A stretch of 64,000 nucleotides of DNA from Dyella psychrodurans (GTDB lineage Bacteria > Pseudomonadota > Gammaproteobacteria > Xanthomonadales > Rhodanobacteraceae). Below are positions 8,808 to 47,672 of this stretch, piece after piece. Positions within the stretch are counted from its first letter, which is position 1; each line of letters begins with the position of its first letter. A program made the position numbers and the translations under genes. The notes under the pieces were generated by a model that ran no database searches, was not told where the DNA came from, and was given only the letters and a program-made list of their open reading frames with translations. The stretch is from assembly GCF_003363265.1 (NCBI RefSeq), contig NZ_QRBF01000004.1:186001-250000 (forward strand). The letters run 5' to 3'.

Positions 8808-9076
8808 GGAGCCTGTTCATGATCTTTGCGTAGCCCGCGTTGTGTCTGTATGGCCGTCAGGTGGTGGCGTGCGGCGCCGCGCCTGACTGGCCGTCAGGTC
8901 AAGCCGCGCGCTGCCGCATGGCGGCCATACAGACACAACCCTTCGGGCCGGGTCTGTTTGCCCGCATGGCCGCGTCATCACTCGCTCATGTATCGACATA
9001 CACTTCGCTCGTTCTTCCTTGCCCTGCGTGCAAACAGATCCCGGCGCGGGCCACGCAAAGATCATGAACAGGCTCC
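8808..9076. repeat. Palindromic MITE-like element, copy A
   Basis: A 269-base element with terminal inverted repeats. 24 bases are perfect (8808-8831 against 9053-9076); after one mismatch the pairing continues through the shared AGCCCGCG/CGCGGGCC block. Inside are a second perfect 18-bp inverted repeat (8839-8856 against 8922-8939) and a direct repeat TGGCCGTCAGGT (8851, 8888). The right half from about 8970 is clearly homologous to copy B at 20531-20682; the roughly 100 bases at 8840-8950 look like an insertion relative to B. There is no transposase gene. It fills the divergent gap between the MFS gene and the LytTR gene. Confidence 0.8.
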
Positions 9077-9077
9077 T

Positions 9078-9950
9078 ATGGGCACAAGCCGCGGTTTTAC
9101 CTTCGAAAGCTTCCAGCGCTGGCGGCGATCATTCGAGATCGCTTTCTGGCCGGCGTTCTTTGTCCTCAACACCGTTTTCAATGGCGAGATTTCGGTGATG
9201 GACCACCCTCGTGTTCAATGGTGGGAGCCATGGGTGTGGGAGGCAAGCAGCTCGACCGTAATGCTGGCGCTGGTGCCTGCGCTGGTGACGGCATCGCGGC
9301 GCTGGCCGATCCGCATCGATACGTGGCAGCGAAACTTGCCGTTGCATCTGATGTTCAGCGTGGTCTTCAGTGCCATCCACGTGGCAGGCATGGTGGGGTT
9401 GCGCATGCTGGCTTACGCGATGGCCGGACAACATTACGATTTCGGGGCGTGGGCCACCAATTTTGCCTACGAATACCTCAAGGATGGTCGTTCTTATTTT
9501 TGGATATTGGTCACGATAGGCTTGTACCGGTTCTGGGTAATGCGTCTCCAGGGCGAAGCAAGTTTGCTGGAGGAGCCCGACGTCGGGCCGCCGGTAGAAC
9601 CGGTGGAACAACCCGAGCGGTTTCTGGTGCGCAAGCTCGGCAAGGAGTTTCTGCTGGCTGCGCGTGAAATCGAATGGCTGCAGGCATCGGGCAACTACGT
9701 GAATCTGCATGTGCGCGGGCGCGACTATCCGTTGCGCGCCACCATGGCGGGCATCGAAACGCGACTCGATGCGCAGCACTTCGTACGGGTGCATCGAAGT
9801 TACGTGATCAATCTGGACTTCCTCGCGGAAATCGAGCCTCTGGATACCGGCGATGCGCGTCTGTTGATGCGCGACGGCGTGAAAATTCCCTGCAGCCGGC
9901 GTTACCGCGCCATGCTGCGCGAGCGCTTCGGCCAGCCCACGGCGGCTTGA
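9078..9950 (+). CDS. Membrane-bound LytTR-family transcriptional regulator
   Basis: A 290-residue protein with an N-terminal membrane part of about four helices (roughly residues 18-160) and a C-terminal LytTR DNA-binding domain (about 185-285). LytTR features seen are EIEWLQASGNYVNLH, RATMAGIE and the terminal FVRVHRSYVINLDFL stretch. It lacks a receiver domain, so the signal probably enters through the membrane part; its target genes are unknown. The ATG at 9078 begins one base after the right end of repeat copy A, and the frame stays open through the element. The only ribosome binding site available is formed by the element end (AGGCTCCT) and is poor, so the start is less certain than the family call. 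Confidence 0.85.
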   Translation: MGTSRGFTFESFQRWRRSFEIAFWPAFFVLNTVFNGEISVMDHPRVQWWEPWVWEASSSTVMLALVPALVTASRRWPIRIDTWQRNLPLHLMFSVVFSAIHVAGMVGLRMLAYAMAGQHYDFGAWATNFAYEYLKDGRSYFWILVTIGLYRFWVMRLQGEASLLEEPDVGPPVEPVEQPERFLVRKLGKEFLLAAREIEWLQASGNYVNLHVRGRDYPLRATMAGIETRLDAQHFVRVHRSYVINLDFLAEIEPLDTGDARLLMRDGVKIPCSRRYRAMLRERFGQPTAA

Positions 9951-10017
9951 GCGGGCGGTTGCACCCGGTCATCACTCGTTTCAAGCTAGCGGCCTGTCCT
10001 TTGCCGGTGTGCTGCCA

Positions 10018-10752
10018 ATGACCCGTTCGTTCCTTCGTCGTTCTGTCCCCCTTTTTGCCGCCTGTAGCCTGCTTGCGCTCGCCGCGTGCTCGCAACAGGA
10101 GCCAAGCGCGCCGTCGCAAGCCGATGCGGCCAAGGCCCAGGCTCAGGCGGAAGCTGACGAAGCCAATAACCAGCTGCAGACGTATCGCAAGATGCTGCAG
10201 ATGAAGAGCGACGAAATGGCTTCGCAACTTGGCCAGCAGATCGTCCAGCAATTTCCTAACAGCGACGCGGCCAAGGAAGTGCAGCAGACGCTGCCGGCCG
10301 TGGAGCAGCGTTGGAAGGAAACCAGCGAAAAGCGCCGGTTGACGGCGTTGTGGACCTATCAGGTCGGCCCGATGGAAGGCGGCACGCAGTCCACTGCCAG
10401 TCTTTACAGCACATCGCCCTCGGGGGATCGCGCCGTGCGTCTCGTGCTGCGCCGGCACACCAAGTGGGGCCAGAGCGTGTTCATGTTTGGGACGGGCCAC
10501 GGCTTTGTGTGCAAGGGCAATTGCATGATCCAGACGCAATTCGACGGCAAGTCGCATCCGCTGCGCGCTTTCTTGCCCACCACCGGCGAGCCGGCGATTT
10601 TCATTCGGGACGACAAGCCTTTCATCGAGGCGATGGAGAAGACCAAGCGCATCACGATGAATGTGGAAATGCAGGATGGCGGCAAGCAGACGCTGGTGTT
10701 CGAAGTCGGCGGCTATGATCCGACCAAGTGGACCGAGGTAGGCAAGAAATAA
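10018..10752 (+). CDS. Putative lipoprotein, function unknown
   Basis: A 244-residue predicted lipoprotein. A basic start, a hydrophobic core and the lipobox LAAC place the modified cysteine at residue 24. The mature N-terminus is a Q/A-rich helical linker up to about residue 110, followed by a compact domain with a pair of cysteines (FVCKGNCM) that may form a disulfide, then a beta-rich C-terminus. The ATG at 10018 is favoured over an in-frame GTG at 10009. It is in the same direction as the following lipoprotein genes and 62 bases upstream of the next. No named family recognised. Confidence 0.75.
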   Translation: MTRSFLRRSVPLFAACSLLALAACSQQEPSAPSQADAAKAQAQAEADEANNQLQTYRKMLQMKSDEMASQLGQQIVQQFPNSDAAKEVQQTLPAVEQRWKETSEKRRLTALWTYQVGPMEGGTQSTASLYSTSPSGDRAVRLVLRRHTKWGQSVFMFGTGHGFVCKGNCMIQTQFDGKSHPLRAFLPTTGEPAIFIRDDKPFIEAMEKTKRITMNVEMQDGGKQTLVFEVGGYDPTKWTEVGKK

Positions 10753-10814
10753 CCGCTGTGCACTGGCTGCGCATGCGTGCGTTGAATCGAGTATCCGGTG
10801 ACGGAGAACGTGCC

Positions 10815-11291
10815 ATGTTGAACATGCGAGTGTTGATGATCTTATTGGCCGGTGCGTGGCTTGCCGACTGTACCAGTGTTCCTTACGCGCAGCATCTCCA
10901 GCAACGCCAGCAGGCCTACAGCGCGGCAGCGGGCGCCCCAGTCCGTAGCTTTCGCCTGGTCCTGGGCGCGCAGATCTACTCGTGGGAACCACTCAGCGAA
11001 ACGCAGCTGGTGGTCTACACCTTGCCCACGCGGGCCTATCTGCTCGATGTCTGGCCCTGCAGCAATCTGACCTTTACGAATACCATCGGCCTGACCAGTT
11101 TTGCCGATCAGGTGCAGACAGGCTTCGACAAAGTGCTGCAGGGACGGGACTACGTGCCTTGCATGATCAAGCAGATTCGTCCCATCGATCTGACGCAACT
11201 GAAGTTGGACAAAGACCGAGAGGAACAGCGTCACGTCGACAACGTGCAGCGCGATAGCAGCAATGGCACGCCGCCACCCGGCAAGAACTGA
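10815..11291 (+). CDS. DUF6491-type lipoprotein, first paralog
   Basis: A 158-residue small envelope protein, clearly paralogous to the product of 11672-12139: both start MLxMRV, then share SVPYAQ, AYxAAAGAPVRSF, SWEPLS, QLVVYT and a closing QIRPIDL. The pattern resembles DUF6491-type proteins, whose role is unknown. A lipobox-like LADC places the cysteine at residue 19, but the -1 residue is Asp, which is unusual; the paralog has the normal VAAC. Either this copy is a poor substrate for lipoprotein processing or it is simply secreted. Two further cysteines probably form a disulfide. The zinc-ribbon gene starts 3 bases downstream. Confidence 0.75.
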   Translation: MLNMRVLMILLAGAWLADCTSVPYAQHLQQRQQAYSAAAGAPVRSFRLVLGAQIYSWEPLSETQLVVYTLPTRAYLLDVWPCSNLTFTNTIGLTSFADQVQTGFDKVLQGRDYVPCMIKQIRPIDLTQLKLDKDREEQRHVDNVQRDSSNGTPPPGKN

Positions 11292-11294
11292 GCG

Positions 11295-11567
11295 ATGAGT
11301 GAGCCGGACATCTATTGCCCGCATTGCGCCTGGCGTCCGCTCGGCACCAGTCGCTGGCTCTGTTCGCATCACATGGGCGGCTGCGGCACGACATGGAACA
11401 CGTTCTGGACCGGCGGTGTCTGCCCCGGTTGCGGGTATCGCTGGGAGATCACGGCGTGTCTGGCGTGCAAGCAATTCGCGCTGCACAGGGACTGGTATCA
11501 CTGGCCCGAATCCGATGCGCATCATCTGGACCGCACGCGAGAAACGGAGCAGCCGGCAGGACAATAA
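11295..11567 (+). CDS. Small zinc-ribbon protein
   Basis: A 90-residue cytoplasmic protein without a signal peptide. Four Cys/His groups (CPHC near residue 8, CSHHMGGC, CPGC and CLAC) are spaced as two zinc ribbons, with an aromatic segment WYHWPESDAHH near the C-terminus. Function unknown; nothing identifies a nucleic-acid partner. It starts 3 bases after the upstream lipoprotein gene, so the two are very likely cotranslated. It sits exactly between the two DUF6491-type paralogs. Confidence 0.75.
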   Translation: MSEPDIYCPHCAWRPLGTSRWLCSHHMGGCGTTWNTFWTGGVCPGCGYRWEITACLACKQFALHRDWYHWPESDAHHLDRTRETEQPAGQ

Positions 11568-11671
11568 GGTCTTTCCAGTCCTTTTCCCTGAGGTCCGTTC
11601 GCATCATCGGGACTGTGCACTCTCAAGACGCTGGTGCGTTAACTCTCAGTAGATGAATCCGGAGTTGTGCC

Positions 11672-12139
11672 ATGTTGAAGATGCGTGTTGCGGGTGTTGT
11701 TCTGCTCGGTGCTTGGGTGGCGGCTTGTTCCAGCGTGCCCTACGCACAGCGCCAGAAACAGCGTCAGGATGCTTACAACGCGGCCGCCGGCGCGCCAGTG
11801 CGCAGCTTCGTGTACCTGGGTCGGATGTGGTCGTGGGAACCGCTCAGCGACCAGCAACTGGTGGTCTACACCGTACCCAGCCGGGCCTACCTGCTTGACG
11901 TATGGGGCTGCCCGAACCTGCCATGGACGCAGGTCATCGGTTTGACCGCCAGCTTCCGCGAAGTGCAGACCAACTTCGACAAAGTGCTTACCGGGCGCCG
12001 CTACGCACCCTGTCCGATTACCCAGATACGGCCGATCGATCTGGCGCGCCTGAAGCTCGAGCAACAGGCGCAACGCGAGGTCGATATGCAGCCCAGAAGC
12101 GATGCCAATACGCCATCCGTTCCGGCTGGTCAGCAGTAG
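11672..12139 (+). CDS. DUF6491-type lipoprotein, second paralog
   Basis: A 155-residue lipoprotein with a canonical lipobox (VAAC, Cys19). It shares most of its length with the gene at 10815: SVPYAQ, AAAGAPVRSF, SWEPLS, QLVVYT, RAYLLDVW and QIRPIDL. The two mature cysteines (in WGCPNL and APCPIT) are conserved with the paralog. The 104-base gap from the zinc-ribbon gene has no strong terminator, so one transcript could cover all three. It ends 37 bases from the convergent ferritin-like gene. Role unknown; probably periplasmic or outer-membrane associated. Confidence 0.75.
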   Translation: MLKMRVAGVVLLGAWVAACSSVPYAQRQKQRQDAYNAAAGAPVRSFVYLGRMWSWEPLSDQQLVVYTVPSRAYLLDVWGCPNLPWTQVIGLTASFREVQTNFDKVLTGRRYAPCPITQIRPIDLARLKLEQQAQREVDMQPRSDANTPSVPAGQQ

Positions 12140-12176
12140 TGCCATGACCGGCGCCGGAGCGAGGGCTGGGATGGGT

Positions 12177-12998
12177 TTACTGCAGGAATAACCTTTCGCT
12201 GATGCGAGCCAGCGGTTTTTCCAGGGTCTGCTGCAGCCTGGGCGGCAGATCCAGCGGCTTGAGCAGCATCTTCACCGTCATTTCGGCAGGGATGTGGCGA
12301 CGCAGCAGCGCCTGCGCGGGACCGGCCACCTTCTGGAACTGTGCCTTGTCGTCCTTGTATTGCGGGTAGCACTGGTTGAACACGTGGCGCAGCGCGATGT
12401 CGCTGTCCTCGTTCCGGATTTCGTTGACCCGGCGCACGATCGCGCGGAAAACCTTGTAGCGGCCCAGCCGTTCCTGCTCGCGATAACGCTGGAACGCCTG
12501 GTAGAAGTGTTTGTAATGCCGCACTTCGTCGCTCTTGATGTGGCTGGTCAGCTGTTTGAGCACAGGCTCGTCGACGATATCGTTCAAGGCGCGATACAGG
12601 CTGGCGGTGCCGGTTTCCACGACACAGCGTGCAGCCAGTTCCAGCCCGCGCGAAGGTTCCAGTTGCTCATTCGTGCACAGGGCGCCGTAGTCGTTCCAGA
12701 AAGCCTTGAATCCGCTTTCCCAGTCGAACTCGGGCCATACATGCTGCACATACGCGGCCAACGCGCGGCCGTGTTGCAGTTCTTCGTGCTCCCAATGCTC
12801 GCGCAGCCACGCCTGCAATTCGAGATCACCGTCGAAGTGTTCGATCAGGTTGTGTGTGTAGAGGTCCGAACCGCTTTCCACGAACGACGCACTGCAGAGC
12901 AGAAGAAAGAGATGTTCGTCATGCCGCACGCGTGCGATATCGATCTCGGCAAAGTTGAGGCTTTCCAAGGTCCATGGCAGGGCGGGGCTGTAGTCCAC
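12177..12998 (-). CDS. Ferritin-like di-iron domain protein
   Basis: A 273-residue, mostly helical cytosolic protein. Two carboxylate/histidine motifs typical of ferritin-like di-iron proteins are visible: EHWEHEELQHGRA near residue 70 and SDEVRHYKHFYQA near residue 160, with extra acidic residues in the N-terminal helices (FVESGSDLYTHN). The pattern suits a four-helix bundle with an oxidase or desaturase-like iron site. The substrate is unknown. It is transcribed alone; repeat copy C lies about 100 bases upstream of the start. The ATG at 12998 gives MDYSPALPW; an open upstream extension in another frame was ignored. Confidence 0.75.
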   Translation of the reverse strand: MDYSPALPWTLESLNFAEIDIARVRHDEHLFLLLCSASFVESGSDLYTHNLIEHFDGDLELQAWLREHWEHEELQHGRALAAYVQHVWPEFDWESGFKAFWNDYGALCTNEQLEPSRGLELAARCVVETGTASLYRALNDIVDEPVLKQLTSHIKSDEVRHYKHFYQAFQRYREQERLGRYKVFRAIVRRVNEIRNEDSDIALRHVFNQCYPQYKDDKAQFQKVAGPAQALLRRHIPAEMTVKMLLKPLDLPPRLQQTLEKPLARISERLFLQ

Positions 12999-13097
12999 GT
13001 GGAGTTTCCTGTGCAGAAAAGGCCACCCGACCCATGACAGATCGGGGACAACAGCATAAAGGGTGAACGATGCCGCGGATTAATGCCAGCCGACCAC

Positions 13098-13142
13098 TTA
13101 GAGCCTGTTCGCGATCTCCGCGTAGCCGCGAACAGGCTCTAA
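13098..13142. repeat. Palindromic repeat, short copy C
   Basis: A perfect 16-bp inverted repeat (13098-13113 against 13127-13142) with a 13-base loop. The left arm plus loop matches the left terminal arm of copies A and B up to GCGTAGC, and the right arm is only the outer end. It looks like a deletion derivative of the longer elements. It lies between two minus-strand genes, just downstream of the stress-protein stop, and could also end that transcript. Confidence 0.75.
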
Positions 13143-13152
13143 CAGCGAGGTG

Positions 13153-13569
13153 TCAACGGACAACCGTAACGGGTACGTGCGCGCCCGCCAGCACGTCATC
13201 GGACACTGAGCCCAGCAGCCAGCGTCCCAGGGCGCCCCGTCCGGTATGACCGATGACAATATGATCGATGGGGTGCTGCCGGACCTGGTTGAGCAGCACG
13301 TCGCCCGGGCTGCCGTGGATGATTTCAAGGTCCACGAACTGGTCCGAATCCGGGGCGATGGACTTCAATTCCTCTTGCAATTCCACCGTCCTCTGGGCGG
13401 CCGAGTCGGTCATCATCAGCGCGCAGGCGTCGGCGCCACCCTGGGTGACCTGCAGCACCGAAACGACGCGTACCCGGCCCCCTCCGCAACGGGCCAGATC
13501 CATGGCAAAGCGAAAAGCACGCTGCGAAGAATCGGAACTGTCATAGCCGACCAGCGAATACTTGAGCAT
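13153..13569 (-). CDS. Universal stress protein, UspA family
   Basis: A 138-residue single-domain Usp. It has the N-terminal strand MLKYSLVGYDSSDSS with the conserved Asp, and the C-terminal ATP-binding signature of the G-2X-G-9X-G(S/T) type in GHTGRGALGRWLLGSVSDDV, so it is likely an ATP-binding UspFG-type member. The start at 13569 has a strong GGAGG eight bases upstream. It is monocistronic, with repeat copy C just after its stop. Its upstream region (13570-13784) is shared with the divergent exported-protein gene. Confidence 0.9.
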   Translation of the reverse strand: MLKYSLVGYDSSDSSQRAFRFAMDLARCGGGRVRVVSVLQVTQGGADACALMMTDSAAQRTVELQEELKSIAPDSDQFVDLEIIHGSPGDVLLNQVRQHPIDHIVIGHTGRGALGRWLLGSVSDDVLAGAHVPVTVVR

Positions 13570-13687
13570 GTTTCCTCCATGGCAGAAACGTGCTTCCACA
13601 CAGCGTCAGTGTGCGCGGCACGTCGTTAGTTAAGCATCAAGCCGCGGGAAACAACAGGCAATACTTTCACGGGATCTTGTTGATTCT

Positions 13688-13705
13688 GAACGGGTCGACC
13701 GGTTC
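13688..13705. promoter_or_regulatory. Near-palindrome GAACnGGTCGACCnGTTC
   Basis: An 18-base inverted repeat with two mismatched positions, in the divergent gap between the stress-protein gene and the exported-protein gene, 80 bases before the latter. It is a candidate operator; no binding protein can be named. Confidence 0.3.
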
Positions 13706-13784
13706 TTGCTGGTTCGTTCAGTTTGCAGGTCCGACACTCTTGTCTCGGCATTGATGACCGTCAACGCACTGTAAGGAGACCTCC

Positions 13785-14252
13785 ATGAGCAAGCGTACCC
13801 TTGGTTTGACTGCCGCCCTGGTCCTGGGTGTTGCCGGCTTGGCCGGGCTGCCCGCCAGCCGGGCCCACGCGGCCCCGGCCGCCGACATCAAGTGCCATCT
13901 GAAATTCAGCCTGGCCGGCTGGTCGGCGCTTTATCAGCATGCCGAAGGCAGCGGACACATCGTCTGCGATAACGGCCAGCGGGCTGCGGTGAGCATCAAC
14001 ATGGTGGGCGGCGGCCTCACCGCCGGCAAGTTCCGCATCGACAATGGCACCGGTGAGATCAGCCACGTCCGTGGCATCCAGGACGTGTTCGGCGATTACG
14101 CCGAGGCGGGTGCATCGGCCGGCGTGATCAAGAGCGGCTCGGCGCAGGTGCTGACCAAAGGCACCACGTCGATTGCGCTGGCCGGCAGCGGCGAAGGCAT
14201 CAATCTGGGTGTTGCAGTCGACAAGTTCTCGATCAAGCCTGTCAGCCACTGA
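13785..14252 (+). CDS. Exported protein of unknown function
   Basis: A 155-residue protein with a Sec signal peptide (MSKRTLGLTAALVLGVAG, cleavage probably after AHA near residue 29). The mature domain is Gly/Ala/Ser rich with alternating beta-type segments, two cysteines (IKCHLK, HIVCDN) and no membrane segment after the signal. This resembles a small periplasmic or outer-membrane lipid-binding beta fold, but I do not recognise the family. AAGGAGA precedes the start at good spacing, and a strong terminator follows, so it is monocistronic. Confidence 0.75.
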   Translation: MSKRTLGLTAALVLGVAGLAGLPASRAHAAPAADIKCHLKFSLAGWSALYQHAEGSGHIVCDNGQRAAVSINMVGGGLTAGKFRIDNGTGEISHVRGIQDVFGDYAEAGASAGVIKSGSAQVLTKGTTSIALAGSGEGINLGVAVDKFSIKPVSH

Positions 14253-14271
14253 GTAGCCGATATCTTGCGGT

Positions 14272-14305
14272 AAGCGAAAGGCGCCATCAGGCGCCTTTCG
14301 CTTTT
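14272..14305 (+). terminator. Rho-independent terminator
   Basis: A 14-bp perfect stem AAGCGAAAGGCGCC with an ATCA loop and a following T-run, 20 bases after the exported-protein gene. Confidence 0.85.
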
Positions 14306-14358
14306 AAGCCACAGCGTATACTCGCCGGGCAGTGTTTCTTTCCCCGGGAGTTACATTC

Positions 14359-14907
14359 ATGCGTCGTTTTTCGGTCGCGCTTGCGCTGATCTGCCTGCTG
14401 AGCCTGCTGGCCACTCCGGCGTTCTCAGGCATAAAGGTAGGCAATCCGCAGGTAGGCCAGGCCGCCCCTTCGTTCCGCTTGCAGGATCAGAACGGTCACT
14501 GGCGCACGCCGGCCGATTACCACGGACGCTGGCTGGTGCTGTACTTCTATCCGAAAGATTTCACGCCGGGATGCACGACCGAGGTGTGCGCATTCCGCGA
14601 CAACATCGCCAAGCTGCGTCAGGCCGGTGCGGATGTGGTGGGCGTAAGCCTGGATGACGTGAAATCCCACGAGGAGTTCGCGGCCAAGTACCACGTGCCA
14701 TTCCCGCTGCTCTCCGACGCCAACCGCCAGGTCGCCATCAACTACGGCGTGCTGACATCGGCGGTCGGCTTTCACTTTGCCAAGCGCACCACATTCCTGA
14801 TTGATCCCAACGGCAACATCGCCAAGATTTACCGCGAAGTGGATCCCGAGAAAAATTCCGCCGAAGTATTGAGCGACCTCACCACCCTGAAGAAGGCGTT
14901 CCATTGA
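14359..14907 (+). CDS. Exported peroxiredoxin, Bcp/PrxQ type
   Basis: A thiol peroxidase reducing peroxides. The 182-residue protein has an N-terminal signal peptide (about residues 1-23), unlike cytosolic Bcp, then the PrxQ fold with YFYPKDFTPGCTTEVCAFRD: peroxidatic Cys72 and resolving Cys77, the usual 2-Cys intramolecular arrangement. It therefore probably acts in the periplasm. The ATG at 14359 (MRRFSV) is preceded by GGGAG. The stop codon overlaps the start of the following membrane-protein gene by one base, so they are coupled and the membrane protein may support it. Confidence 0.9.
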   Translation: MRRFSVALALICLLSLLATPAFSGIKVGNPQVGQAAPSFRLQDQNGHWRTPADYHGRWLVLYFYPKDFTPGCTTEVCAFRDNIAKLRQAGADVVGVSLDDVKSHEEFAAKYHVPFPLLSDANRQVAINYGVLTSAVGFHFAKRTTFLIDPNGNIAKIYREVDPEKNSAEVLSDLTTLKKAFH

Positions 14908-15425
14908 TGCTGATATCAAGTTCCGACCTGGGCATACGGCGGTCCGGGTTTGCATGGTGGCGCATGCTCGTGTGGGTGCTCCTGTTGCTGGCGGGGTTCG
15001 GCGGGGTGCAATACGTCTCGCATGCGCAGCAGGTATGGGGCGTTCTGCAATCGCTGCCGCCGGGCGATGCCTCGGCGAGTTCCGCTCTCCACGGCGTGCT
15101 GGCGTGGGATCTGGGTTATCTGGCGGCGGCCTTCGCGCTGATCGTGGTCTGCGCCGGCTGTATCCTGCGGCAGGCATGGGCTCGACCCGTGCTGCGCTTG
15201 GTCGCCCTGGTTCTGTGCGTGTGGAGTGCGTACCGCGGCGTGCTGTTGTGGCAGCAATGGAGCACGCTCAATGAAGCGGGAAGCGCTGCGCAGCTGACGG
15301 ACTTGCGGCACATCGTGCTGGCCGGCTTGGGGCTGCGGGCCATGGCCGTGCCGGTGCTGCTGTGGCTGTCCTGGCAGCTGGGCCAGCCGGCCGTCCGGCT
15401 GCAATTCAAGGCGCGCAGGCACTGA
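14907..15425 (+). CDS. Integral membrane protein of unknown function
   Basis: A 172-residue protein with four hydrophobic segments (near 19-37, 68-90, 98-112 and 137-156) and basic ends. The ATG at 14907 overlaps the peroxiredoxin stop by one base (TGATG), so translation is coupled. There are few conserved polar residues and no visible catalytic motif. The context suggests a partner of the periplasmic peroxiredoxin, but this is inference only. Confidence 0.7.
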   Translation: MLISSSDLGIRRSGFAWWRMLVWVLLLLAGFGGVQYVSHAQQVWGVLQSLPPGDASASSALHGVLAWDLGYLAAAFALIVVCAGCILRQAWARPVLRLVALVLCVWSAYRGVLLWQQWSTLNEAGSAAQLTDLRHIVLAGLGLRAMAVPVLLWLSWQLGQPAVRLQFKARRH

Positions 15426-15497
15426 TTCAGCGGCAGTTCCTGCACCGGGCTTTATCGCTGTCGGCCTGTCTCCCTGGCACGCCGACAACGCCGACCC

Positions 15498-16250
15498 ATG
15501 TCCATGAAACGATCGCTCGCCGCCTTGATCCTGGTACTCGCCGCAGGAACCCTGCACGCGCAGGATCTGGCCAAGGTTTGTCACGCCACCAGCAGCTATG
15601 ACCTGACCGTTCAGTCGGATCGAATGGTGTTCGACCGCGACACCCCCGCGCCCACACGCGTGGTGCTCAGTCCCGGCATGCTGCAAACGGACGGCCGCAG
15701 CGTGCCGTTGAGCTACGAAGACCAGGATCGCCTGGATCTGTTCCAGCGCGATCTGCGTGCCTTGATGCCGCGTGTCAAAGCCATTGCGCAGCAGGGGGTG
15801 GGCGTGACCTTGCAGCTGGTTCGCGACGAATCGGGCAGCCTGAACTTGGATGCCGACACCCAGGCGGAATTGAATCGTCGCCTGGCCGCCCATTCGGCGG
15901 AACTGCGCCAGCGCATCGCCGACAGCCAGAGCACGCATGACTGGCACGGCGACGCCGCCGACCGCTATGCGAACGAAATCGTCAGCGACATCGCGCCGCT
16001 GTTTATTTCGGCGCTCGGACAGCAAGCGGTCAGCGCCGCCATGAGCGGCGACCTGCAGCAGGCGGCCGCCCTGCGCGATCGTGCCAGCAATCTTGCCGGC
16101 AGCTTCCAGCCCCGCCTCCAGCGGCGTCTTCAGGTCCTTCGGCCCGAGATCCAGGCGCTCTGTCCGGATATCCAGCGCCTCTCGGCCCTGCAGGCCGGCA
16201 TTCGCGCCAGCAACGGCCGTCAGCTGAACCTGGTCCTGATCGGCCAGTGA
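15498..16250 (+). CDS. DUF2884 (YggN-like) exported protein, first copy
   Basis: A 250-residue exported protein with a clear signal peptide (MSMKRSLAALILVLAAGTLHA). The mature part follows the YggN/DUF2884 pattern: an early CHATSSYDLTVQSD segment, a DGRSVPLSYEDQDRLDLFQRDLR region and a helical C-terminus with a late cysteine (ALCPDIQRL). A second gene with the same plan lies at 20823. The role of the family is unknown; location is periplasmic. It is probably transcribed separately from the 172-residue membrane-protein gene 72 bases upstream. Confidence 0.8.
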   Translation: MSMKRSLAALILVLAAGTLHAQDLAKVCHATSSYDLTVQSDRMVFDRDTPAPTRVVLSPGMLQTDGRSVPLSYEDQDRLDLFQRDLRALMPRVKAIAQQGVGVTLQLVRDESGSLNLDADTQAELNRRLAAHSAELRQRIADSQSTHDWHGDAADRYANEIVSDIAPLFISALGQQAVSAAMSGDLQQAAALRDRASNLAGSFQPRLQRRLQVLRPEIQALCPDIQRLSALQAGIRASNGRQLNLVLIGQ

Positions 16251-16363
16251 AACGCAGGCTGAGCGGAGTCGAACACCCGATAGCGGGTTAATCCCCCGGT
16301 AAGTAGCCGTCTTGCAACATGCTTGCCAATACAAGATTTTGCGACCAGGCAGGAGGCGACCCC

Positions 16364-16807
16364 GTGTCGCTGGAAACCCGACATCTGTGCAATGGCCTGA
16401 TACGCCGCAGCATCGAGCTGCGCGCGCTGTATCGTCATGCCGCCGCCCAGGTGAGCGAACCCGGCCTGCGCACCGTGCTGGACGAAGAAGCCCAGTCCCT
16501 GGACGCCGTGATCGCCGAGCTGCAGACGCAGATGCGCAACCACGATCGCACGCCCGCCACGCGCAGCCGCATGATCGAAGCCGCGCGGCACCGGTTCGAT
16601 GTATGGCTGGTCCGCGGCATGCCGCGCAGCGACGATGCCTGGATACGCCTCCTGGCGCGTCACGAGCAGGGTTTGCTGCGTGCGTTCGAGCGCGTGCTGA
16701 CGCGTGTCTCCGCCGGCGACATGACCACCACGCTGCATCGCCAGCTTCCGCGCCTGCAGTCCATTCACCTGGATATGCACAGCCTCGCCAAGGCTGTCGG
16801 TCAGTAA
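16364..16807 (+). CDS. Helical-bundle protein, DUF2383-like
   Basis: A 147-residue all-helical cytosolic protein. The order (TRHLCNGLIRRSIELRALYRHAAAQ at the start, then alternating Glu/Arg-rich helices and a terminal IHLDMHSLAK) suits a ferritin-like four-helix bundle of the DUF2383/PA2169 type, although the metal ligands are not obvious. The GTG at 16364 is preferred to the ATG at 16319 because AGGAGG lies seven bases before it. It is followed 3 bases later by a DUF924 gene, so the two form an operon. Confidence 0.6.
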   Translation: MSLETRHLCNGLIRRSIELRALYRHAAAQVSEPGLRTVLDEEAQSLDAVIAELQTQMRNHDRTPATRSRMIEAARHRFDVWLVRGMPRSDDAWIRLLARHEQGLLRAFERVLTRVSAGDMTTTLHRQLPRLQSIHLDMHSLAKAVGQ

Positions 16808-16810
16808 TCC

Positions 16811-17395
16811 GTGGCACCGCCGCCGCCCGACGCGCTGGCGGTGCTTACGTTCTGGTTCGATCCCGCCCACCACGATGAGTGGTACGCCGCCCGCCCGCAG
16901 TTCGATGCTTTGATACGCGAACGATTTGCGACAACGGTCGACGCCGCAGTGGCGGGCAAACTTTCGGACTGGACGAACACGCCTTCCGGTTGGCTGGCCC
17001 TGCTGATCGTGCTGGATCAGTTCACGCGCAATCTCTATCGCAACGATGCGCGCGCATGGAAACAGGACCTTCGCGCACAACAACTTGCCGTGTGGGGCAT
17101 TGAGGAAGCTTACGACGGCCAACTTCCGGCCATCCAGCGTGTGTTTGCCTACATGCCGCTGGAACATGCTGAAGATAGGGGCATGCAGGATCGTTGCGTT
17201 GCCTTATTCGAATCGCTGTGCGACGGCCTGCCGCCCGAGGAACGAAGCGGCTACATCGGCTTTCTCGACTATGCTCGGAAACACCGGGCGGTGATTGCGC
17301 GCTTCGGCCGCTTTCCGCATCGGAACGCTGTGCTGGGTCGTGCAAATACACCAGATGAAGTGGCGTACCTGGCTGAGTCGGGCGCCGGTTTCTGA
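16811..17395 (+). CDS. DUF924 family protein
   Basis: A 194-residue cytosolic helical protein of the DUF924 (TPR-like) family. Family features seen: an opening ALAVLTFWFDPAHHDEWYA, LIVLDQFTRNLYRNDARAW, a central YMPLEHAEDRGMQDR and the terminal FGRFPHRNAVLGR block before a TPDE segment. The biochemical role is unknown. It uses a GTG start, 3 bases after the upstream gene. Confidence 0.9.
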   Translation: MAPPPPDALAVLTFWFDPAHHDEWYAARPQFDALIRERFATTVDAAVAGKLSDWTNTPSGWLALLIVLDQFTRNLYRNDARAWKQDLRAQQLAVWGIEEAYDGQLPAIQRVFAYMPLEHAEDRGMQDRCVALFESLCDGLPPEERSGYIGFLDYARKHRAVIARFGRFPHRNAVLGRANTPDEVAYLAESGAGF

Positions 17396-17449
17396 TCACT
17401 CAACGTGTTCGGCCATGGAAAGTGGCCTCATTGCGACATGGAGCGTGTC

Positions 17450-17773
17450 ATGCGTCGTTACCTCGTGATGGTCTTGCTTGCCTGCGCATATCCAGCGCAC
17501 GCGCTGGAAAGTCTGCGTGTCGGTAGTCAGCTGCTGGTTGTCGGCGACAGCGCCGCGAGGGTAAAGGCGTTACTAGGTAAGCCTTCCAGTCATTCAAAGA
17601 GCAGCAGCTCGCAGAAATCATCGTCAAAGAACTCGGGAAACCGCAAGAACAAGTCGGCCAAAAGCACCGCGAAGGACAAGGGCGAAAAGTGGCAATACAG
17701 GCGCGACGGTCACACCACCATCATCACCATGGTGGATGGCAAGGTGGCGCACATCGAAGATCTGCCGCGCTGA
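17450..17773 (+). CDS. DUF2845-like exported protein
   Basis: A 107-residue exported protein. A signal peptide (to about residue 20) is followed by LRVGSQLLVVGDSAARVKALLGKPS, typical of DUF2845/SmpA-like small envelope proteins, then a low-complexity Ser/Lys/Asn linker of about 35 residues and a closing beta hairpin WQYRRDGHTTIITMVDGKVAHIE. The low-complexity insert is unusual and is probably disordered. The ATG at 17450 was chosen because the signal peptide starts there. It ends 5 bases before the convergent ketopantoate reductase-like gene. Confidence 0.7.
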   Translation: MRRYLVMVLLACAYPAHALESLRVGSQLLVVGDSAARVKALLGKPSSHSKSSSSQKSSSKNSGNRKNKSAKSTAKDKGEKWQYRRDGHTTIITMVDGKVAHIEDLPR

Positions 17774-17778
17774 CGCTA

Positions 17779-18792
17779 TTACCGGGCGTTGCGCAGTGTG
17801 TTGAGCAAGGCATCGGCCTCCCACCGAAGATAGGATCGCTCGGCGTCACGCATCAGTTCGACAATGCGCGCGTTGGCCGGTGCGCGAAGGCCCTTCGATT
17901 TGGCCAGCGCGACGATTTCGCCATTGATGTAGTCGACTTCGGTGCGTCGTCCCGCTTGCAAATCGTCCCAGGTGGAAGATCGCGCAAGAGGATCGATGGC
18001 CAGCATGCGCGCGGCGATGCGATGGAACATCGCATCCGGCAGCGACAGCACGGTCGGCAGCCAGCGTGCGGGAAGCGCGGTGACTTGTGCCGGGCGAATG
18101 CCGGCGACTTCCAATATCTGCAACCCTTCGCGCTGAAGTAACGCGAGACAACGACGCCATGTTCGATGTGCGAGCTGATCGCGCAGCGGCAAGCCGCTCA
18201 ATGCATTCAGCGGATTGTTGAGATTGATCAGCAGTTTCGCCCAGAGTACCGCCTGCATGTCGTCCTGCCGTTGCAGTGCGAGTCCGCCACCGGCAAAGAC
18301 AGGCAGGAACGGTTCGAGCTCAGCGGAATGTTCCACCATCAACTCGCCTGACGAGCCTTGATGAAAATGGCCCGGCTCGGGTTGGGTCACGTTGAACGGC
18401 ACCATGCCGGCCAGAACGCTATGCCCGGGCAGCGACGCACGCAGTTCGGCGGTGTTGCGCACGCCGTTCTGAAAACTGATGACCAGTGAGCCGGGCGCAA
18501 GCACTTCGGAAAGTTCGTGACCCACGTCCATCGTTGCCGACGATTTCACCGTCACCAGCACCAGCTCGGCGTCGCGTGCGGCTTCGGGATGCGTGTGCAC
18601 ATCAAGCACATCCGGTGCGATGTGTTGTCGATGACCGTTGAGATCGCTGACGGTCAGTCCGCACGCTTTCAGTGTAGACGCGATGCGCGGCCTTGCAATG
18701 AAACGCACCCGCGCGTGGTCATGCAGACGGCCACCGAGATAGTTGCCGATCATGCCGGCACCATAGATGGCAATGCGCGGTAACGGCTTCAT
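17779..18792 (-). CDS. 2-dehydropantoate 2-reductase family protein (PanE/ApbA-like)
   Basis: NADPH-dependent reduction of a 2-keto acid; in the pantothenate pathway ketopantoate to pantoate. The 337-residue protein has the N-terminal Rossmann motif IYGAGMIGNYLGG, the conserved VTVKS near residue 85, an SFQNGV loop and the C-terminal helical domain with AKLLINLNNPLNAL, where Lys and Asn match the family catalytic positions. It overlaps the upstream flavoprotein gene by four bases, so the two are coupled. Whether it serves pantothenate synthesis or a related keto acid is open, because many genomes have several paralogs. Confidence 0.88.
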   Translation of the reverse strand: MKPLPRIAIYGAGMIGNYLGGRLHDHARVRFIARPRIASTLKACGLTVSDLNGHRQHIAPDVLDVHTHPEAARDAELVLVTVKSSATMDVGHELSEVLAPGSLVISFQNGVRNTAELRASLPGHSVLAGMVPFNVTQPEPGHFHQGSSGELMVEHSAELEPFLPVFAGGGLALQRQDDMQAVLWAKLLINLNNPLNALSGLPLRDQLAHRTWRRCLALLQREGLQILEVAGIRPAQVTALPARWLPTVLSLPDAMFHRIAARMLAIDPLARSSTWDDLQAGRRTEVDYINGEIVALAKSKGLRAPANARIVELMRDAERSYLRWEADALLNTLRNAR

Positions 18793-20444
18793 GCCACGGC
18801 CGCTGCGGCAGCGCGCCCCGCAATACGCCCGGAAAACAGGCATCCGCCAAGGAAGCTGCCTTCGAGTGCGCGATAACCGTGCAATCCGCCGCCGCCGAAA
18901 CCGGCGGCTTCGCCCACGGCATAAAGTCCGCGCAGGGGTTGGCCGTCGTGACCGAGTACGCGCGCCTGCAGATCGGTTTCGAGTCCGCCGAGCGTCTTGC
19001 GCGTGAGGATGTTCAGTCGCACGGCGATCAACGGGCCGTTGGAGGGATCGAGCAGGCGATGCGGCTTGGCGACGCGCACCAGGCGATCGCCGCGATAACG
19101 GCGCGCGTTGTGAATGGCCATGACCTGGCTGTCTTTCGCATACGGGTTGTCGAACTGACGGTCCCGCGCCTCGATTTCCTCGCGCAGACGCGCGGCATCG
19201 ATAAGTTGGCTGCCGGCGAGTTCGTTCATGCCGACAACCAGGTCGTCCAGGTTGTCGCGCACCACAAAATCGCGGCCGTGCCGCTTGAAGGCCTCCACCG
19301 GCGCGGGCGCATGCTTGCCAACCGCGCGTTTTGCAACTTGCCGCCAACTCTTGCCGGTCAGATCGGGATTTTGCTCGGAACCGGAAAGCGCGAATTCGCG
19401 CCGGATGATCTGTTGATCCAGCACAAACCAGCTGTAGTCGTAACCCGTGCGGCGCAGGTGTTCGAGCGTGCCCATCGTGTCGAAGCCGGGCCACAGCGGG
19501 CAGGGCAGGCGGTGGCCGCGTGCGTCGAACCAGAGCGACGAGGGGCCGGGCAGGATGCGAATCGCGTGCCTGGGCCAGATCGGATTCCAGTTCTCGATCC
19601 CTTCGACGTAATGCCACATGCGGTCGCGGTTGATCAGGCGTGCGCCCGCCGCTTCGCTGATGCCGAGCATGCGGCCGTCTACATGTGCGGGGACGCCACA
19701 CAACATGTGCGACGGTGGCGGACCCAAACGTTCGGGCCAGTTTTTGCGCACCAGTTCGTGATTGCCGCCGATGCCGCCGGACGCCACGATGACCGCCTGC
19801 GCGCGATATTCGAAATCGCCCGCTACCTCGCGCGAACTCGGCTTGCCGCGTTCGACGCTGTCGTCGGCCAGGCGCACGCCATGCACGCCGACCACGCTGC
19901 CGTTTTCCATCATCAAGCCATCGACGCGATGGCGGAAAGCAAACTGCAACAAACCTTTCGATGCCGCGTCGCGTGCGCGACGCACGAAAGGTTCCAGCAC
20001 GCCCGGACCGGTGCCCCATGTCACATGAAAGCGCGGTACCGAATTGCCGTGGCCGATCGCGCCATAGCCGCCGCGTTCGGCCCAGCCCACCACGGGAAAC
20101 CAGCGCATGCCCATGCCATGCAGCCAGGCGCGTTTTTCGCCCGACGCAAAATCGACGTAAGCCTGAGCCCATTGGCGCGGCCAGTGGTCTTCGGCACGAT
20201 CGAAGGCGGCCGTGCCCATCCAGTCGGCCAGCGCCAGCGCATGCGAGTCGCGTACACCCATGCGACGCTGCTCCGGCGAATCCACGAAAAACAGGCCGCC
20301 AAAAGACCAATGCGCCTGCCCGCCGAGGCTCTGCTCCGGTTCCTGTTCGACCAGCAGCACGCGTCGTCCTGCATCGGTCAGCTCCGTGGCGGCGACGAGG
20401 CCGGCCAGCCCCCCGCCAACCACGATGACATCGGTGGATTGCAT
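18789..20444 (-). CDS. FAD-dependent dehydrogenase/oxidoreductase (KstD/fumarate reductase-like)
   Basis: A 551-residue flavoprotein. The N-terminal FAD motif is DVIVVGGGLAGLVAATEL, followed by an FAD-contacting acidic strand (LLVEQEPEQSLGG). Further FAD-binding regions are VIVASGGIGGN and the C-terminal GLYAVGEAAGFGGGG. This is the plan of the FAD-binding-2 family that includes fumarate reductase flavoprotein and 3-ketosteroid dehydrogenases; annotated relatives are usually called FAD-binding dehydrogenase. The substrate is unknown. It is the first gene of a coupled pair with the PanE-like reductase. Repeat copy B lies upstream, 87 bases before the start. Confidence 0.85.
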   Translation of the reverse strand: MQSTDVIVVGGGLAGLVAATELTDAGRRVLLVEQEPEQSLGGQAHWSFGGLFFVDSPEQRRMGVRDSHALALADWMGTAAFDRAEDHWPRQWAQAYVDFASGEKRAWLHGMGMRWFPVVGWAERGGYGAIGHGNSVPRFHVTWGTGPGVLEPFVRRARDAASKGLLQFAFRHRVDGLMMENGSVVGVHGVRLADDSVERGKPSSREVAGDFEYRAQAVIVASGGIGGNHELVRKNWPERLGPPPSHMLCGVPAHVDGRMLGISEAAGARLINRDRMWHYVEGIENWNPIWPRHAIRILPGPSSLWFDARGHRLPCPLWPGFDTMGTLEHLRRTGYDYSWFVLDQQIIRREFALSGSEQNPDLTGKSWRQVAKRAVGKHAPAPVEAFKRHGRDFVVRDNLDDLVVGMNELAGSQLIDAARLREEIEARDRQFDNPYAKDSQVMAIHNARRYRGDRLVRVAKPHRLLDPSNGPLIAVRLNILTRKTLGGLETDLQARVLGHDGQPLRGLYAVGEAAGFGGGGLHGYRALEGSFLGGCLFSGRIAGRAAAAAVA

Positions 20445-20530
20445 GCGCCTTGCCCCTGAGTACGCTCCAATGGATGAAGTTATCGCGCGCCCGACGGTTT
20501 TCCTATGTGCGCTGCGCCATCGCCCGGTCC

Positions 20531-20682
20531 AGGGTCTGTTCGCACTATTCGCGTAGCCCGCGTTTTGTCCGCCATCCGGCGTCATCGCTCAGTCGTGTAC
20601 GGACGTACACTCCCTCGCTCTTCCTTGGTTGGCGAGCAAACAGCTCCCGGCGCGGGCCACGCGAATAGTGCGAACAGACCCT
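20531..20682. repeat. Palindromic MITE-like element, copy B
   Basis: A 152-base element with 32-base terminal inverted repeats (20531-20562 against 20651-20682) that differ at one position only, the same A/G position as in copy A. The interior from about 20575 to 20650 is homologous to the right half of copy A, including the CTCGCTCTTCCTTG stretch. It occupies the divergent gap between the flavoprotein gene and the DUF2884 gene. No open reading frame or transposase. Confidence 0.8.
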
Positions 20683-29441: not shown

Positions 29442-29795
29442 GGGTACACCTCCAGTAACTGGGGTGGGCGCCCTTGATCGTTGTGAGTGATCGGCAGCCG
29501 AGCGTGGCGGACCGGTGTCCGTCGCAGCACCCCTCGGAGCCGAGGCGCCAATGAAGCAGTCTTGGCGCGTAACTGGCTCAGTATTCGTACATGGCCCCGG
29601 CGATGTCAATGTGGCTTTTGTCATTGAAGGGCAAGCGCTCACCTTACCGTCATACATGCACATGATCGGTAGCCGGCTATGCGGTGCTGTGCAGTGAGCA
29701 TCGGCATTCCCTGTACTCGTGCGCGATCGACGGTCACCCGGAGATAAAAGCATATAGGGCATAGGTCACCGGACATGAGGTGCCGACTCAGGTTA
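29442..29795. other. Divergent intergenic region
   Basis: About 350 bases between the ATP-grasp gene and the permease gene. It must hold both promoters. No convincing gene and no clear promoter pair; a TATAGG sequence near 29752 could be a -10 box for the permease. Confidence 0.35.
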
Positions 29796-47410: not shown

Positions 47411-47498
47411 GTTCGAACCGTAAGCGAAAAAAGTAGGTGCCCGAAAAGAGCAGAAACAAAGCAACCTTCATTCTCGCGTTGCGGCAAACCGCCCCCGC

Positions 47499-47600
47499 CG
47501 TCATTCTGGCGAACGCCGGAATCCAGTAGCGAGAGCTTGCAGATGTGCAGACATGCATGTGGCTAGTCGTCACTGGATTCCGGCCTTCGCCAGAGTGACG
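47499..47600. repeat. Pair of inverted REP repeats
   Basis: Left unit 47499-47526 and right unit 47573-47600 are inverted copies with 2 differences in 28 bases, each carrying the GGATTCCGG / TTCGCC core also seen in imuA. The 46-base spacer includes an ATGCATGT stretch. This is a BIME-like arrangement between cystathionine beta-synthase and glmS. Confidence 0.8.
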
Positions 47601-47672
47601 GGTCCAGCCAGAAAGCCAGCCGAAACGGCACGCCCCTAATGTGCCCGCTCATTTTGATCAGGAACTGACGTC

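Follow-up and report, generated by a model that had tools for sequence, protein, structure and literature searches.

A widespread family of structured, MITE-like elements with matched terminal arms in Dyella and related bacteria

The Dyella psychrodurans genome (4.54 Mb in 16 contigs) contains palindromic repeats whose terminal arms differ strongly from copy to copy and match within each copy. A first-pass annotation of a 64,000-nucleotide stretch of this genome (the window) described three such copies, A, B and C, and attributed the paired changes to selection on, or copying through, a hairpin. This locus raises the question of what keeps the two arms alike, and whether the answer lies in the folded structure, in replication or in the mobility of the element.

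Copies in the window and distribution of the family

The coordinates first given for the three copies were correct (Table 1). The left arms of A and B differ, as described, at positions 1, 3, 5, 12, 13, 14, 15, 17 and 20, the right arms differ at the identical nine positions, and the single left/right mismatch falls at arm position 25 in both copies. Copy C has GAGCCTGTTC in common with them and is a palindrome with 16-base arms. In one detail the first description needs correction: A is full-length and B is a deletion derivative without hairpin 1. A second inverted repeat inside A (8839-8939) had not been described.

Table 1. Features of copies A, B and C, in positions of the window
Feature	Position	Strand	Remarks
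Copy A, left outer arm (terminal inverted repeat)	8808..8839	+	Tip GAGCCTG, variable zone 9-22, GTAGCCCGCG
Copy A, hairpin 1	8839..8939	+	Arms 8839-8875 / 8903-8939
Copy A, mini-hairpin CCC-TTC-GGG	8939..8947	+	
Copy A, hairpin 2	8947..9044	+	Conserved GCGTCATC...CTTCCTTG loop
Copy A, right outer arm	9045..9076	+	
Copy B, left outer arm, variant sequence	20531..20562	+	
Copy B, shortened interior	20563..20650	+	Without hairpin 1, mini-hairpin and start of hairpin 2
Copy B, right outer arm	20651..20682	+	
Copy C, short palindrome	13098..13142	+	Arms only; probably a deletion derivative

Two other features of the window were recorded. A SAH riboswitch at 29459-29539 (minus strand) scored 37.8 bits, just over the Rfam gathering score of 37, and another inverted repeat at 47498-47601, with 35-nt arms that are 89% complementary (CCGTCATTCTGGCG...), is by eye unlike the family of A, B and C.

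The search of the genome and its relatives that the first-pass annotation had proposed was run with copy A. Ten matches covering most of A were found in the D. psychrodurans genome itself (G000), with several arm types present together. At E<=1e-5 there were matches, some shorter than full length, in 16 of 16 genomes of the genus and in at least 92 of 197 genomes of the family, the own genome being included in both counts, and at order level at least 35 of 250 genomes matched, at least 10 of them outside the family; the family- and order-level searches scored three candidates per genome, so that these counts are lower bounds. Among the matches listed, the named records with the element were mostly Dyella, Rhodanobacter and Fulvimonas, members of the Rhodanobacteraceae. 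Viral contigs had no exact match to one 21-base pattern of the element, and plasmids had none to A. A match on an Acidisphaera contig (L190) was set aside as in appearance due to chance, the rest of the element being absent there.

A total of 210 copies were collected with their flanks. Both arms could be parsed in 181, the other 29 having no arm anchor that was found, and 172 entered a single alignment, 9 further copies being left out by length. The element is a mobile, non-coding sequence of about 268 bp that is dispersed among soil-dwelling relatives of Dyella and Rhodanobacter. In a six-frame check, 41 of 172 copies had a best frame that ran across the whole element without a stop codon, a result that indicates no coding capacity, and the mean GC content was 65.2% in the elements and 61.6% in the window. 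The first-pass annotation had recognized no named family, and Rfam likewise gave no match above the gathering threshold (the best below it was mir-431, at 25.1 bits against a threshold of 70); nor was the element found described in the titles or abstract openings of the literature searched, in which coverage of subscription journals was thin. The family of structured, MITE-like elements is real and widespread, and no name for it was found in that literature.

The full-length element has four parts: the outer stem, with about 31 pairs, then hairpin 1, the mini-hairpin CCC-NNN-GGG and hairpin 2. The fold was scored on 40 sequences, made up of 32 diverse copies from the family and 8 from five genomes at a greater distance (three of them nearly alike); 8 of the 48 sequences chosen for this mixed alignment were not located by exact text, and L408 and L413-L415 were left out. 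Pairing was found in 94.1% of cells compared with 31-42% in slid controls, although the alignment that was scored had also supplied the structure, which therefore has some advantage over its slid versions. Two-sided changes occupied 740 cells vs 183 after shuffling, and the covariation score was 0.523 vs 0.180 shuffled and 0.06-0.10 slid, so that the covariation exceeds what relatedness would give, as in a structured RNA. The distant copies differ in their stems and keep the loops.

Several individual copies depart from this layout. The distant relatives L414 and L415 (genomes G366 and G213) have the CCC-NNN-GGG and hairpin 2 section in common with the family and a different hairpin 1 (GGCGCGAGGAGTGAAG...); modules may have been swapped between elements. 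L003 (G000 C1:554090) is truncated and starts on the left with the 5' arm of hairpin 2 (CTAGGGTCTGTTTGC), as though this inner arm had been used as an alternative end. In L006 (G000 C9:81517-81762) hairpin 1 is a mosaic, with the left arm as in L005 and the right arm as in L007, which suggests conversion between copies. Since such conversion occurs, finding the same interior with different arms is no proof that the arms changed at transposition.

Insertion sites and ends shared with IS5-type insertion sequences

Probes made of the flanks only gave 16 readable sites in a close relative, of which 11 were empty, 5 were filled at full length and none was decayed (neither L193 nor L166 could be read, and L210 was scored as empty on partial matches). 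Two sites were occupied in other relatives by shorter forms, with lengths of 59 bases in G076, 175 bases in G131 and, in inverted orientation, 160 bases in G140, so these sites have been hit more than once. A 3-bp direct repeat flanks 35 of the 181 copies, compared with 15.5 by reassignment, and 34 of the 35 are TNA; most copies have no intact direct repeat. IS5-family insertion sequences target TNA. Between tandem genes, as called for this analysis, 98 of 131 copies lie no more than 20 bp from the upstream stop codon, probably because TAA and TGA are themselves TNA targets at which insertions survive. Orientation with respect to the flanking genes was without bias (68 ++ and 63 --). An oriented cis-acting RNA such as a terminator was rejected on this ground and because wobble bias and loop type are independent of the direction of the flanking genes.

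Ends like those of the element occur on two kinds of IS5-type insertion sequence, which we assume to be IS427-like. One, in genome G054, ends in GAGCCTGTTCAAAGTCTC; of its two reading frames, the second matches NF033580 above the cut-off and the first below it; the arms of elements L066 and L120 are identical to this end over 18 bases, and insertion sequences with similar ends are present in G031 and G037. The other, in L299, has a left end that differs from its right end, and the right end is identical over 18 bases to the CTAGGGCGTGTCATCAAT with which L404 and L405, from another genus, start. The IS5-type insertion sequence in L301 (G054 C46) has partial tandem repeats of its own end regions and is rearranged. 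Relatives of the G054 transposase were found in 9 of 197 family genomes. In G000 there was no relative of it at E<=1e-15, and the sole PF01609 match there showed no ends like those of the element; the search for insertion sequences with PF01609 or PF13340 covered part of the loci, so other matching ones may be missed. A transposase with matching ends, which the first-pass annotation had said should be sought, was thus found in a few genomes but not in the own genome. As to a documented parent, insertion sequences with the same ends exist, but the interior is, as far as seen, not derived from them.

With its empty sites, TNA duplications and IS5-like ends, the element is a non-autonomous insertion element, and its early description as non-autonomous and MITE-like was sound. 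Judging from the sequences of the ends, it is probably mobilized in trans by IS5-family transposases.

Changes in the arms and in the interior hairpins

On average the two arms of a copy agree at 29.97 of 32 positions over the 181 copies, while in 1000 reassignments of the right arms the mean was 22.7 and the maximum 23.2. Chance is thereby excluded as the cause, and the arm covariation that the first-pass annotation had wished to see tested is confirmed. Unpaired arm changes in other copies, which it had named as evidence that would refute it, do occur to some extent, and in columns 9-24 of the 172 copies there are 108 unpaired cells against 804 with a paired alternative. Column 20 has 74 paired alternatives and 2 unpaired, and as it lies past the 18 bases that resemble insertion sequence ends, its pairing is not explained by end recognition alone.

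The timing of the changes was examined in 12 same-site pairs (11 of them reciprocal best matches, with L050/L096 at ranks 1 and 4). Their outer stems had 24 one-sided and 2 two-sided column pairs, divided as 16 and 1 in seven pairs and 8 and 1 in five. Nearest neighbours at other sites, compared in the same columns with same-site pairs removed, had 22 one-sided and 16 two-sided where no more than two pairs differed (Fisher p 0.004) and 65 and 68 where no more than four differed (p 2e-5), a comparison in which best-match selection could bias the same-site set against paired changes and the neighbour set may be of any time depth. Four same-site pairs with paired changes (L056/L109, L088/L090, L223/L251 and L162/L265), none of them reciprocal best matches, may represent separate insertions or change in place. 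Compensation in place was set aside as the reading of paired changes at shared sites, since the two copies are not each other's best match in just those pairs where paired changes are most numerous, and since different forms can hit one site. The plain reading is that the outer arms regain their pairing across transposition and that resident copies do not maintain it. Mismatches in the outer stem have no wobble bias either (75 G.U vs 78 A.C with column 25 omitted; G.T 17 and A.C 28 among nearest neighbours, where, as in the neighbour counts for hairpin 1 and for paired transversions below, same-site pairs are included), and together with the mostly one-sided changes at shared sites this favours matched transposon ends, renewed by transposition, as the nature of the outer arms.

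A possible, though in our view unlikely, alternative is that the matching is mainly a mutational by-product, in which polymerase template switching copies arm onto arm (quasi-palindrome correction) without selection. PMC8794818 sets out such a mechanism for RNA stems, and paired transversions are common among nearest neighbours (43, vs 69 paired transitions). The loop triplet at columns 135-137 is TNC in 90 copies and GNA in 72, together 162 of 172, and is of equal type between nearest neighbours in 118 of 172; the two types resemble the ttc/gaa spacer inversions reported in PMC8604942. Against this alternative, TCC and its inverse GGA stand at an unbalanced 28 vs 1, and the mismatch at position 25 persists, being matched in only 45 of 181 copies.

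The interior hairpins behave differently from the outer stem. In hairpin 1 there are 803 G.U mismatches vs 37 A.C, about 500 of the 803 being supplied by four columns. Among nearest neighbours its segregating mismatches are G.T in 76 cases vs A.C in 8, one-sided changes in 7 orthologue pairs went 19 times to G.T and 5 times to A.C (p 0.007), and the 8 distant copies from five genomes have 33 G.U vs 1 A.C. This one-strand preference for G.U is as expected of a folded single strand, and under template switching its polarity needs selection or strand-biased mutation in addition. Hairpin 2, whose middle pairs poorly, leans to the opposite strand (45 vs 98 and 23 vs 89), so that the strand favoured in hairpin 1, and perhaps in hairpin 2, reads inward from the end closer to it. 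Since the bias is equal for either direction of the flanking genes, read-through transcripts of the host do not explain it. The original choice between selection on and copying through a hairpin is therefore well supported for the interior, whereas the outer arms favour matched transposon ends.

Resident copies are also conserved. In 15 same-site pairs the pooled identity of the element is 93.7%, compared with 93.4, 96.3 and 75.3% at codon positions 1, 2 and 3 of the flanking genes and 87.3% in the remainder of the flanks, and the element exceeds codon position 3 in 15 of 15 pairs. Similarity was the basis on which these pairs were picked, and in 3 of them the two copies are not each other's best match; 4 of the 5 sites that the flank probes found filled are included, and the fifth (L181/L384) is 93.3% identical over the element. 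According to PMC8604942, short inverted repeats in proteobacteria lie in regions that are better conserved than the sequence around them, and template switching may therefore have a part in this conservation.

The same conservation, the loops kept while stems changed across families and the hairpin 1 changes in orthologue pairs are what would be seen if the element were a functional RNA or DNA whose whole fold, outer stem included, is selected in residents, with mobility secondary. We consider this doubtful. Empty sites are frequent, the outer stem changes mostly on one side with no G.U bias, hairpin 2 leans to the other strand, neither orientation nor wobble and loop type follows gene direction, and the conservation itself is measured on pairs chosen by similarity.

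A proposed mechanism and its comparison with known systems

The explanation that we favour, with a probability of roughly 0.6, is that these are non-autonomous, MITE-like elements moved in trans by IS5-family transposases, that the arms co-change as matched ends, and that the interior is under selection for its fold. IS5-family transposases would recognize the outer arms and a TNA target and so move the element of about 268 bp. Both ends would have to suit one transposase, and the outer arms would for that reason change together, probably helped by template switching within the palindrome, with one arm serving as template for the other. After insertion, the resident arms would change mostly one side at a time, while selection on a folded single strand, either RNA or DNA, would keep the interior hairpins and that strand would travel with the element.

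The element resembles bacterial (type II) MITEs as outlined in PMC10969869, where these are less than 500 bp long, have terminal inverted repeats of 4-30 bp and are typically AT-rich. It shares with them the length, many intergenic copies, target duplication, foldability, the lack of a conserved reading frame, and terminal inverted repeats held in common with an insertion sequence, its 32-base arms being slightly longer than the range given there. It differs in being GC-rich, although AT-richness is typical of MITEs in that account rather than defining, in its covarying stems with conserved loops, and in arms that vary strongly within one genome and match within each copy. Mobile, intergenic, foldable repeats also include bcr1, ERIC and Correia, which we liken to it by description only, after PMC10969869 and PMC2267715. 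IS5-family insertion sequences (NF033580) have similar end sequences and the same TNA target, but the element has no transposase and no insertion sequence interior was recognized in it. The likeness to REPINs drawn in the first-pass annotation fared less well: a REPIN or other palindrome mobilized by a RAYT is highly improbable, for although the element is palindromic, many left arms have the GTAG motif and PF01797 was matched in 67 of 97 family genomes, no such RAYT-type gene was found in the element-bearing genomes G000, G014, G053 and several others, and a REPIN would not be expected to have the 268-bp architecture, the TNA target or the IS5-like ends.

It is tempting to speculate further, and only tentatively, that the mobile element carries a structured nucleic acid cargo with its own conserved loops, in which hairpin 1 would form in the strand that reads inward from the left end and hairpin 2, perhaps, in its counterpart from the right end, and that the arms have been exchanged pairwise for different IS5-type transposases as the element spread across several families of the order.

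The some two hundred copies gathered here, with many more in reach, form a natural data set in which shared insertion sites let paired and unpaired changes be put in order, and with the changes so ordered, selection for structure, template switching and end recognition become separable. The element itself may be a widespread, as yet unnamed family of structured RNA or DNA.
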